DNA from: Melioribacteraceae bacterium
GTDB taxonomy: Bacteria; Bacteroidota; Ignavibacteria; Ignavibacteriales; Melioribacteraceae
Direction of reading: 5' to 3'
Length of the DNA stretch: 39,809 bases
NCBI GenBank assembly: GCA_026983795.1
Contig: JALSTI010000231.1
Location: 1-39,809 of the forward strand
Below, one piece after another: positions 25,431 to 28,925 of this stretch. Each line of letters begins with the position of its first letter. The first letter of the stretch is position 1. The notes under the pieces are model-generated. The model saw nothing but the letters and a program-made list of their open reading frames with translations, had not been told where the DNA came from and did not search any database. A program made the position numbers and the translations under genes.

Positions 25431-25883
25431 TTATTTGTTTTTTTTGTCGCTCCAAGTACTGAGCGCTTTTATTACGTCATTCATTACGTCTAAAACAACG
25501 TTACGGTTGCTTTTCTTTAAACTTTCTAAAATTTCCTCATGAATTTTAACATGATTTTTATTAAGATTTTTAATAAACGGTTTACTTTTGCTGGTTAAAT
25601 ACACAATCATATTCCTCTTATCGGCAGGATCGGGTTTCCTTTTAATAAGCTTTTTTTCTTCCAACGAAGTAAGAATATGAGTTGTTCTGCCGGGAGTAAT
25701 TCCCATTGCAGCTGTTATAAATTTAATCGTTAAAGAATCGTGGTTAGAAAATAACCTGAGACATCTAAATTCTGCAGGCGTAAGGTTAAATTGTGCTGCG
25801 AATATTTTTTCCTTGTCGTTGCAAGCCTTTGCCAGCTCGCAAGTTAAAGATGCCATCCTTTTTGCTAATTCTGAAGTAGACAT
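25431..25883 (-). CDS. MarR-family transcriptional regulator
   Basis: The 150-residue protein shows a MarR winged helix: helices around LTPAEFRCLRLF, recognition region ITPGRTTHILTSLEEKKLIKRKPDPADKRNMIVYLT (DxR wing motif), and terminal dimerisation helices. Such regulators repress divergent or own genes and release DNA on binding phenolics, oxidants or metals. It is convergent with the glycosyltransferase gene. Two palindromes upstream (25926-25941 and 25954-25979) are candidate operators. The divergent neighbour is a small membrane protein whose link to it is unproven. Confidence 0.9.
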   Translation of the reverse strand: MSTSELAKRMASLTCELAKACNDKEKIFAAQFNLTPAEFRCLRLFSNHDSLTIKFITAAMGITPGRTTHILTSLEEKKLIKRKPDPADKRNMIVYLTSKSKPFIKNLNKNHVKIHEEILESLKKSNRNVVLDVMNDVIKALSTWSDKKNK

Positions 25884-25979: not shown

Positions 25980-26209
25980 ATTAAAATAATGCGTCGTTTA
26001 GCATGTTTTAAGGATATTTTTTTTCCGTATTTGCTTGGTTTTAATATAATCTTGAACAAAACTTACTAAATAAAATTCAGGTATATTTTTAAAAAAAATA
26101 TAAAACTGTTCTAAATCAAAATTATTTAAATAATATAATTGATGTAATTTTAAAAAACTATTATATTTCTCTACTAATAAATTAAGAAAATGTGAGGAGC
26201 GTCACTTTA

Positions 26210-26245
26210 ATGAAACAAGCGTCCACTATTTTTACGGTGAACTAA
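26210..26245 (+). CDS. Possible 11-codon leader ORF coupled to the next gene
   Basis: An ATG 12 bp after a GAGGAG site opens 11 codons (MKQASTIFTVN) ending in TAA immediately before the next ATG at 26246. The stop-start contact would allow translational coupling or leader-peptide control. It is too short for any statistical support. Confidence 0.3.
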   Translation: MKQASTIFTVN

Positions 26246-26476
26246 ATGATTAAATATGGTAAAAAACAAAAAGGCAGTGGCTCTATGGAAAACTATATAC
26301 AACAACCCTTAAGTAACCCATATTGGGACCCTAAAAAAGGCGACTTTTACAGCGAAGAAGCTCTTGCGGAAGAAAGGTTATACCGTAGAAAAGAAATAAT
26401 GAAAAAAGTTTCGATAGGTACGCTAATTTTACTTCATTTAGCACTTATGGTTTATGCAATTATCTATCTTGCTTAA
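26246..26476 (+). CDS. Small single-span membrane protein
   Basis: The 76-residue product has a polar N-terminal half with a Pro/Tyr-rich patch (NPYWDPKKGDFYSEE) and one C-terminal transmembrane helix (about residues 54-74, ending in AIIYLA). I do not recognise it. An in-frame ATG at 26285 is an alternative start; neither has a strong ribosome site, but the first abuts the stop of a mini-ORF with a GAGGAG site. The last codons form the left arm of a large perfect hairpin. It is divergent from the MarR gene and may be regulated by it. Confidence 0.5.
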   Translation: MIKYGKKQKGSGSMENYIQQPLSNPYWDPKKGDFYSEEALAEERLYRRKEIMKKVSIGTLILLHLALMVYAIIYLA

Positions 26477-26494
26477 TTGCAAGATAGATAATTG
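26457..26494. repeat. 16-bp perfect inverted repeat straddling a stop codon
   Basis: CAATTATCTATCTTGC (26457-26472) and GCAAGATAGATAATTG (26479-26494) are exact reverse complements with a 6-nt TTAATT loop. It is the longest perfect dyad I found in the window. It covers the last codons and stop of the small membrane protein gene. No proper T-tract follows, so it is either an atypical terminator, an mRNA-stabilising hairpin or a remnant element end. Confidence 0.85.
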
Positions 26495-26651
26495 TAAAGC
26501 TTTTCATCAAATTTGTAATTTTAAATTTCCTACTTATAAAAACATCCTTATCTTATTCTTTTTATTCACCTTAAATATCCTTTTATATTAAGAATTAATT
26601 TTTTTTGTTGGATAATATATTTATTTATTCAACACAATTGATTTTGATTCT

Positions 26652-26924
26652 ATGGTTACAAAAACCAACGAGCGAGAACTTGCATCGAAAATATCCGAAT
26701 GGATAAATGAGATAATTAAGCGTAATGATTTTCCTTTTACTTCGACTTTCAACGGAACCTACCAAATTAAAATTTCCAAAGACGATAAAATGATAAAACA
26801 AATAATAGCAAGGTATAAACAAAAACTAAAAGAAAGACTTGAACAAAACGCCCACAAAAAACTGCACGATTGGCATCTATCAGAAAAAATGGTAAAAGAA
26901 ATTTTGGGTGAGTGGATTTGGTGA
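26652..26924 (+). CDS. Orphan 90-residue protein, possibly a gene remnant
   Basis: The protein is highly charged, helical and without membrane or signal segments. Its first 30 residues (NERELASKISEWINEIIK then DFPF) resemble the opening of larger restriction/modification-associated proteins, while the rest does not continue that pattern, so an internally deleted remnant is possible. I cannot name a family with confidence. The ATG lacks a ribosome site. It converges on the PIN gene with only 2 bp between stop codons, inside a small accessory stretch beside a tRNA gene. Confidence 0.45.
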   Translation: MVTKTNERELASKISEWINEIIKRNDFPFTSTFNGTYQIKISKDDKMIKQIIARYKQKLKERLEQNAHKKLHDWHLSEKMVKEILGEWIW

Positions 26925-26926
26925 GA

Positions 26927-27499
26927 TTATTTATTTTCAAAATTTCCAAATAACTTTTTAATATTTTTCTCAAACGTTATTAAATTTGTCGGCAAATCAT
27001 TTTCATATTTCCAGTATTCTATAATTTGCTTAATCAATTCGATATCAATATGATTATTATCTTGCATAAGCTTCATTAGTTCCAATGTTGTTAAAATATC
27101 AACTTCAAACTCTTTACATACCTTAATCATATTCCGGTCGTCAGTTACCAAATTAATTCCCAATTCCAAAGCAGTTGCAATACAATAAATATCTTCGCGT
27201 GATAAATTATATCTTTTATCTTTTTGATATTGCCATATATGTTCATAAGTGTTTTCAATATCTGCTTGTTTTGTTTTCTTGATTATAAGTTTTTTCTTTC
27301 GGTTTTCTTTATATTCTTCTTGTCCAATCCAGTTAAACTTGCTCTGTAATCTGGAACTTCGATTTAATTCAATTTCAATTTCTTTGTGGATGTAAAGAGC
27401 AAAATTCTTTTTGCCGAATTCTTTACCTAAAAGTGGATGTATAGACTTGGCAAGTCTGAGGTAGGCATTGGTATCCAGTAATATTTTAGTTTGAGGCAT
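26927..27499 (-). CDS. PIN-domain protein, probable toxin-like RNase
   Basis: The 190-residue protein starts with a PIN strand LLDTNAYLRL (catalytic Asp9) and later shows SREDIYCIATALELGINLVTDD, carrying the remaining acidic metal-binding residues of PIN nucleases. Length is longer than VapC toxins (about 130), with about 40 extra C-terminal residues. Its start overlaps the 3' end of the upstream XRE-ImmA/IrrE gene by 14 bp, so the two are translated as a coupled pair. This XRE/metallopeptidase plus PIN-like layout recurs in accessory regions and is read as a toxin-antitoxin or defence-type pair. The RNA target is unknown. Confidence 0.8.
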   Translation of the reverse strand: MPQTKILLDTNAYLRLAKSIHPLLGKEFGKKNFALYIHKEIEIELNRSSRLQSKFNWIGQEEYKENRKKKLIIKKTKQADIENTYEHIWQYQKDKRYNLSREDIYCIATALELGINLVTDDRNMIKVCKEFEVDILTTLELMKLMQDNNHIDIELIKQIIEYWKYENDLPTNLITFEKNIKKLFGNFENK

Positions 27500-28622
27500 T
27501 TGTCAAATATGCATAAATTTCTTTAATATCTGTTGGTGGAATATTAAATATGGTTTTTAAATAATTAGTAGTAATCTTATGTTTTTTGTTGCATTCTCTA
27601 AGCAAATTGAAAATAGGTGTGTTGAATTTTTTTTCTGCAATTTCAATATATTTTTCAACAGTAGGTTTTTCTTTTCCTAAAAGTAATTCGCTTACCAAGC
27701 TGTAATTCTTCGTGAATTTGGTTGTAATAGCATAAAAACTATTTCCTTCTAAGTCAATGATTTTTAATCCATGATGTTTCGCATATTTATTTATTTCTTT
27801 AAGGATTGTAATTGGAGATATAATAAGATCGGAAGCAGTACTTATAATTGAATTGATCTTTTTTGTTTTACTTTTGAATAATAAAATTTCGTAATACTTT
27901 CTCTTAGCTAATTCTTCAGGAAATAAAAAAGCGCCGGCAAAATCATCTGCAAATTTTTCAGCTTTGTTATTAACAAGCGAAGGTGTTAAAATATGCCCCA
28001 GTTCATGCGAGAACCAAAATTTAAAATCAAATATATTGGTATCTAAATTTATATAAATCCAAGTGGTTTGACTTTTAGGAAGATAAATATGAATCGCATT
28101 TTCATGGTTCCTTTTGTTCCCTAGAAGAACTGGAATCAAAATAACATTTAAAGAATTTAAAATATTTATAATTTCATCAAATTTAATTTTCCAATCAGAA
28201 ATATTAAAGTTCTCTCTTATTATACTTGCAGCGCTTTGAATGTATTTGTAATTGTTTCTTGGTTCTTTTAATTCCGGAGGCTTTATCATCATATTGTTAG
28301 GTAAAAAATCTACTAACTGTTCAAGAGCATAGCCCATTTCTTTAGCTTTTTTATAATGAATATCTTTTGTTTTTGCCGATCCTACTTTTCTGAATGCTAT
28401 TCGAGGTTCCAAACTTGTATCAATGTTAACAAGGTCGGAATATTTAATATTTAGAATTTTGCTTAATTTTAATAATTCAGAAGGTCTTGGAAATGTTTGA
28501 TTATTAAACCACAATGATACAGCTTGCTTAGTTAATCCAAGTTCTTCACTTAATTTTGTTTGGGAGAGTCCATATTCAGCAATTTTCTCTTTTATGAGTT
28601 CTGTCTTAAGTGATTTTTTCAT
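27486..28622 (-). CDS. XRE-family HTH protein with ImmA/IrrE metallopeptidase domain
   Basis: From the chosen ATG the 378-residue product begins with an XRE helix-turn-helix (about 18-45: GLSQTKLSEELGLTKQAVSLW). A central ImmA/IrrE (M78-like) domain follows with the zinc motif HELGH in WFSHELGHILTP near residue 200. Family members cleave or control repressors; in two-gene units with a nuclease they act as the antitoxin-like regulator. A TTG 45 bp upstream is in frame but lies within the promoter repeat and has no ribosome site. Transcription from the promoter just upstream would give a leaderless mRNA. It precedes and overlaps the PIN gene. Confidence 0.85.
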   Translation of the reverse strand: MKKSLKTELIKEKIAEYGLSQTKLSEELGLTKQAVSLWFNNQTFPRPSELLKLSKILNIKYSDLVNIDTSLEPRIAFRKVGSAKTKDIHYKKAKEMGYALEQLVDFLPNNMMIKPPELKEPRNNYKYIQSAASIIRENFNISDWKIKFDEIINILNSLNVILIPVLLGNKRNHENAIHIYLPKSQTTWIYINLDTNIFDFKFWFSHELGHILTPSLVNNKAEKFADDFAGAFLFPEELAKRKYYEILLFKSKTKKINSIISTASDLIISPITILKEINKYAKHHGLKIIDLEGNSFYAITTKFTKNYSLVSELLLGKEKPTVEKYIEIAEKKFNTPIFNLLRECNKKHKITTNYLKTIFNIPPTDIKEIYAYLTNASN

Positions 28623-28628
28623 ATTGTA

Positions 28629-28667
28629 AAAATAACGTAAAAGCTCACGCTTGTCAAGTTTTGTCAA
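28629..28667 (-). promoter_or_regulatory. Promoter and tandem repeat of the XRE-PIN unit
   Basis: On the minus strand TTGACA (28657-28652) and TATTTT (28634-28629) are separated by exactly 17 bp, a near-consensus sigma-70 layout. The hexamer TTGACA is repeated 10 bp upstream (28667-28662), making a tandem ACTTGACAA-type repeat over the -35 box that could be the XRE autorepression site. The expected start point falls at the ATG, implying a leaderless transcript. Confidence 0.65.
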
Positions 28668-28847: not shown

Positions 28848-28852
28848 CTTAG

Positions 28853-28925
<73 letters not shown>

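Follow-up and report, generated by a model that had tools for sequence, protein, structure and literature searches.

A perfect 16-bp hairpin across the end of a small gene in a Melioribacteraceae bacterium: a candidate mRNA 3' end structure

Results

A conserved small gene ends in a long hairpin

We analyzed a 39,809-nt stretch of DNA from a Melioribacteraceae bacterium (contig JALSTI010000231.1; hereafter, the window), focusing on a small gene whose end coincides with a long inverted repeat (Table 1). The gene probably starts at the ATG at 26285 rather than at the in-frame ATG at 26246, since its relatives align from the former position. The hydrophobic C-terminal stretch of the product, judged by eye, is probably a single membrane helix, and the protein has no match in Pfam (E 0.1) or NCBIfam (E 0.01). 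Orthologs are present in the three remaining genomes of the genus (G001, G002, and G003), in every case divergent from a MarR-type regulator gene. A single-sequence search of the genome contigs with the small protein found no relative, and an alignment-based search with the protein family found nine loci: six in Melioribacteraceae MAGs, two in Bacterium BMS3Abin04, and one in an Ignavibacteriae MAG. A wider search across 79 genomes from the same bacterial family detected the protein family in 22, the window's own genome among them.

Upstream of the gene, all four orthologs in the genus show a CRP/FNR-like site and the exact 20-nt spacing from this site to TATTTT. The site agrees with the CRP consensus and its spacing with that of class II promoters activated by CRP/FNR, and the two elements likely form an activated promoter of the small gene. 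Judging from this promoter-like arrangement, the small gene appears to be a unit of its own, under separate control and closed by the hairpin.

Table 1. Coordinates of features at the small-gene locus (window numbering)
Feature	Position	Strand	Remarks
MarR-type regulator gene	25431-25883		Close to the small gene
CRP/FNR-like site	26191-26206	+	TGTGAN6TCACT
TATTTT element	26227-26232		20 nt after the CRP/FNR-like site
Small gene	26285-26476	+	63 aa; W-x-P-x-x-G-D motif
Left arm of hairpin	26457-26472	+	CAATTATCTATCTTGC; last codons of the small gene
Loop	26473-26478	+	TTAATT, 6 nt; contains stop codon TAA (26474-26476)
Right arm of hairpin	26479-26494	+	GCAAGATAGATAATTG; directly 3' of the stop codon
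C-rich, G-poor tail	26495-26594	+	100 nt of rut-like composition; putative Rho landing zone
90-aa ORF	26652-26924
Region varying within the genus	26652-28667		L023, L024, L025
tRNA-Met gene	28852-28925	-	Borders the variable region

An inverted-repeat search of the window shows that the two hairpin arms are 100% complementary (16 of 16 pairs), confirming the perfect 16-bp hairpin across the gene's end that a sequence-only reading of this DNA had reported. The next-longest perfect inverted pair is 13 bp long, among 22 pairs listed with arms at most 60 bases apart. The hairpin sits at offset -20 relative to the stop codon. That reading had described the right arm as an exact mirror of both the final codons and the stop; the first part stands, but the stop codon belongs to the loop and to neither arm. 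It was also correct that there is no T-tract: only three T fall in the first 8 nt past the stem, and no 8-nt window around the stem end holds more than four. Five of the 16 pairs are G-C (31% G+C). The predicted RNA fold of the 38-nt hairpin reaches -21.9 kcal/mol, as compared to a shuffle mean of -3.1 (z -10.4). In a context of 101 nt, the corresponding values are -30.0 and -11.9 (z -6.8), with none of 200 shuffles folding as well. A search of the window for known RNA families, at the gathering threshold, returned only a tRNA and left the hairpin unmatched.

To gauge chance, we made 300 dinucleotide shuffles of the window and recorded the longest perfect stem with a loop of 3-10 nt in each. 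None of these shuffles reached 16 bp, and one reached 15 bp. Analytically, the expected number of such stems is 0.0004 in the window, 0.002 when the local base composition is used, and 0.03 in 3.35 Mb of the window's composition. AT-rich DNA favors inverted repeats, as the 22 pairs found in the window illustrate, but with 16 bp beyond the reach of every shuffle we regard a chance inverted repeat as scarcely credible, and the earlier judgment that arms of this length are unlikely to arise by chance is borne out.

The arm sequence is not a dispersed repeat

The same reading had named other copies of the arm, as a common dispersed repeat, as one outcome that would overturn its interpretation. A genome-wide search with the arm found no exact copies in the window's own genome beyond the two arms themselves. 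At up to two mismatches, the arm occurs at seven places in this genome, including both arms, versus five for a reversed control, and at 17 places across G001, G002, and G003, versus six for the control. Two of these 17 places, both in G002, differ by a single mismatch. No arm-like sequence lies at the orthologous gene end in G001, G002, or G003. A dispersed element in the window's own genome was rejected as a candidate, with the arm sequence being single-copy there. Two further suggestions of the sequence-only reading, a protein-binding site and the scar of a mobile element, are weakened by the lack of another exact copy: the former also by the absence of such a sequence at the orthologous gene ends, and the latter also by the left arm being the coding end of a gene conserved across the genus.

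Hairpins recur, in different forms, at the ends of related genes

The G002 ortholog ends in a different hairpin, with a 12-bp stem and a 5-nt loop, positioned one base past the stop codon and followed by the tail ACATACTT. By a relaxed count (defined below), this hairpin has a T-tail with exactly five T. The hairpins of G002 and the window share no common sequence, and their offsets to the stop codon differ (+1 versus -20). In G001 and G003, no perfect stem of at least 8 bp is found at the orthologous gene end; both carry GGGGACCC shortly past the stop codon of the small gene. The DNA past the stop codon is too diverged in the three relatives for an alignment to show a derived arm.

Among the 13 best-scoring members of the small-gene family, including the window's, we counted perfect stems within 40 nt of the stop codon. 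Seven members have a stem of at least 8 bp, with six of these reaching at least 10 bp, and six members have none. Two of the seven stem-bearing members have a T-tail by the strict count and four by the relaxed count. Four of the seven represent one paralog in four genomes with a common GCCTGA core, and orthologs of one paralog make up three of the six members with stems of at least 10 bp; given this shared origin and core, these hairpins are not independent. The hairpin is also not required for the small gene, since the G001 and G003 orthologs and six of the 13 family members lack a stem.

The paralog (L080-L083, with L019 and L021) has its gene-end hairpin with the GCCTGA core in all four genomes of the genus. 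Its hairpin is followed by a third half-site, TTCAGGCAA, giving three arms and two possible pairings. The GCCTGAA hairpin pattern of this paralog has one exact match in the window's own genome, at a location elsewhere (C97).

Gene ends in the genus are enriched for long hairpins

We surveyed gene ends in 235 kb of the window's own genome (window included) and in 600 kb from a single contig of G001. ORFs of at least 100 aa were called by a simple rule, by which some may be false; this cut-off keeps the small gene out of the 678 surveyed ends. T-tails were scored by a strict count, requiring at least five T among the first 8 nt past the stem, and by a relaxed count that allows any 8-nt window around the stem end and reaches into the stem end.

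Long hairpins are enriched at gene ends. Perfect stems of at least 10 bp occur at 27 of 678 gene ends, versus 5 of 678 control places inside the same genes (9 versus 1 of 181 in the window's own genome; 18 versus 4 of 497 in G001). Stems of at least 8 bp are found at 23 gene ends in the window's own genome (14 T-tailed) and 44 in G001 (26 T-tailed), as compared to 4 (none T-tailed) and 12 (3 T-tailed), respectively, inside genes. By the relaxed count, 40 of these 67 gene-end hairpins are T-tailed and 27 are T-less.

Whether T-less hairpins form a class of their own hinges on the definition. By the relaxed count, gene-end stems of at least 10 bp comprise seven T-tailed and two T-less cases in the window's own genome and ten T-tailed and eight T-less cases in G001, with one and three T-less cases, respectively, inside genes. 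The resulting excess of T-less stems at gene ends over the control, 10 versus 4 of 678, is modest. The strict count raises the T-less share: six of nine gene-end stems of at least 10 bp then lack a T-tail in the window's own genome (181 ends), as do five of seven in G001 (164 ends). Other T-less hairpins also touch a stop codon, for example at offsets of -9 (L036), -12 (L087), and -1 (L102).

The sequence past the hairpin is C-rich and G-poor

The 100 nt following the hairpin contain 3 G and 16 C. None of 184 sampled intergenic tails has three or fewer G in 100 nt, and a C minus G value of at least 13 is reached by five of the 184. For 80-nt tails, none of 215 has as few G, and the same C minus G value is reached by 4 of 196 tails without a hairpin. 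In the orthologs, C minus G at 30-130 nt past the stop codon is 9 in G001, 10 in G002, and 2 in G003. The tail composition was tested post hoc, once an account of E. coli transcript ends (PMC13289151) was known to us.

Other T-less gene-end hairpins in the sample do not have such tails: over eight intergenic cases, the mean C minus G is -0.25 (p 0.41 versus T-tailed hairpins; p 0.71 versus ends with no hairpin). With T-less hairpins as a class having no C-rich tail, the Rho-like signature is limited to this locus and does not amount to a rule. A Rho gene is found in all four genomes of the genus and a PNPase gene in the window's own genome, each by family matches over curated cut-offs.

Gene content downstream varies within the genus

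The region 3' of the small gene varies among the genomes of the genus. In both the window and G002, it holds a PIN-domain gene and an HTH gene; the latter has a weak, below-cut-off match to an M78 peptidase-like domain, and the two genes are likely a toxin-antitoxin pair. In G001, there are matches to the PADLOC models for oligonucleotide cyclase, E2, and type I restriction enzyme, alongside one more gene without a match. In G003, two near-identical short genes were read by eye as GIY-YIG genes, and the contig ends ~850 bases past the small gene. The proposal in the sequence-only reading that the hairpin marks the edge of an accessory stretch retains one supporting result: a hairpin and the PIN/HTH genes occur together in the window and G002, with neither in G001 or, as far as its contig runs, in G003. 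Yet the two hairpins are unrelated. For the 90-aa ORF that begins the variable region, fragments alone can be recognized by eye at the same place in the G002 DNA, where tblastn reported no match.

Discussion

A candidate mRNA 3' end

The hairpin is an ordinary kind of feature, and the simplest reading makes it an mRNA-end hairpin of an established type that is unusually long and exact. More specifically, we consider it an even call that the hairpin sets and protects the 3' end of the small-gene mRNA, with termination taking place further downstream. In this model, transcription would run past the hairpin and end in the C-rich, G-poor stretch, most likely by Rho. The hairpin would form in the transcript, and PNPase and other 3'-to-5' exonucleases would then trim the RNA back until blocked by the 16-bp stem. 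The product would be a protected mRNA ending just past the stop codon. Template switching during replication may have produced the perfect stem itself in a single step.

Of the four options raised in the sequence-only reading (an unusual terminator, an mRNA 3' protector, a protein-binding site, and a mobile-element scar), the mRNA 3' protector appears to fit best. This reading is consistent with a stem beyond chance, the enrichment of hairpins at gene ends, their recurrence in the gene family, the separate hairpin in G002, the composition of the tail, and a genome that encodes Rho and PNPase. Against it stand G001 and G003, which have no hairpin, the other T-less hairpins, which have no such tail, and the AT-rich stem.

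The closest parallel we found is in E. coli. An excerpt of PMC13289151 describes E. coli transcript ends with a hairpin, no strong U-tract, and C-rich, G-poor sequence downstream, and interprets them as the outcome of Rho termination followed by trimming to a stabilizing hairpin. Our locus likewise combines a U-tract-less hairpin at a gene end, C-rich and G-poor downstream sequence, and genes for Rho and PNPase. Unlike the E. coli trimmed ends, whose hairpins are GC-rich in that excerpt, the hairpin here has an AT-rich stem with the stop codon in its loop.

If this reading is true, the locus provides one more example of mRNA-end formation, from a little-studied group and with a stem-loop overlapping the stop codon. 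A narrow literature search found no published transcript-end map for the Melioribacter group, and the main text of a Flavobacterium transcriptome study (PMC9723704) does not contain the terms "hairpin" or "U-tract".

Alternative explanations

The main rival to an mRNA-end role is that the hairpin is a fossil of a replication error with no present function, in which a polymerase switched templates and added a reverse-complement copy of the gene end just past the stop codon; the stem would be perfect because it is young. We view this as unlikely, yet as an explanation with real weight. An excerpt of PMC8794818 presents template switching as a single-event route to perfect stems, and the pairing here is perfect, with no mismatch or wobble; moreover, the sequence is missing from the orthologous gene end in all three relatives. 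A weaker sign is that the small protein ends in L-A where seven of eight aligned relatives end in F-S or L-S, as if the arm had slightly bent the end of the protein. What a random accident would not lead us to expect is the enrichment of hairpins at gene ends in the genus and their recurrence in the gene family. A different possibility, which we hold to be a good deal less probable, is an intrinsic terminator without a U-tract (I-shaped), in which a strong stem would by itself suffice to pause RNA polymerase or release it. The stem is very stable and lies right at the gene end, and a U-less hairpin lowers downstream expression in a mycobacterium according to an excerpt of PMC5335608, which also calls the evidence on U-less hairpins contradictory. 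Ordinary T-tailed gene-end hairpins exist in the genus, however (40 of 67 by the relaxed count, stems of at least 8 bp), and an excerpt of PMC4824070 describes an E. coli terminator as almost completely repressed when it was placed several base pairs or less from the end of a gene.

Two further explanations fare worse. An inverted repeat bound by a dimeric protein would account for the perfect dyad symmetry, and a MarR-type regulator gene lies nearby, but the arm searches at up to two mismatches gave nearly as many places in the reversed control as in the window's own genome, and none of the 17 places in the other genomes is at an orthologous gene end. The conserved dyad at this locus is instead the CRP-like site upstream of the gene, and we consider a protein-bound repeat very unlikely. 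A scar or end of a mobile element, at the edge of accessory genes, would agree with a hairpin that separates a conserved gene from DNA of variable gene content, and with the restriction of a hairpin to the genomes with PIN/HTH genes (the window and G002). However, the left arm belongs to the coding part of a conserved gene, the arm has no other exact copy, and the hairpins of the window and G002 are unrelated in both sequence and place, so that such a scar is highly improbable in our view.

Setting these alternatives aside and returning to a hairpin that acts in the mRNA, the position of the stop codon raises one further idea. The final codons make up the left arm and the stop codon is part of the loop, so a ribosome that terminates here has to keep the stem from closing. 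The hairpin may then report translation, with ribosomes keeping the stem open and the stem folding when they are absent, although we think this quite improbable. Under this idea, 3'-end formation or stability of an apparently CRP/FNR-controlled mRNA would depend on translation reaching the stop codon.

Relation to other gene-end hairpins

The hairpin resembles an intrinsic terminator in being a stable gene-end stem-loop, and differs from one in its lack of a U-tract, its low stem G+C, and the stop codon in its loop. The I-shaped mycobacterial terminators of PMC5335608 are likewise gene-end stem-loops without a U-tract; they differ in being described, in the excerpt of that work, as common in GC-rich genomes.

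REP elements and MITEs are palindromic hairpins with many copies in a genome. The hairpin described here is likewise palindromic and sits beside a gene end, but is single-copy in its own genome. A small genome-specific palindromic repeat does exist in G001: the hairpin GCCACCGT-N4-ACGGTGGC has four copies there (G001:C16, L114-L117) and none in ten other genomes searched. At least three of the four copies sit 0-12 nt past the stop codon of an ORF, without a T-tract.
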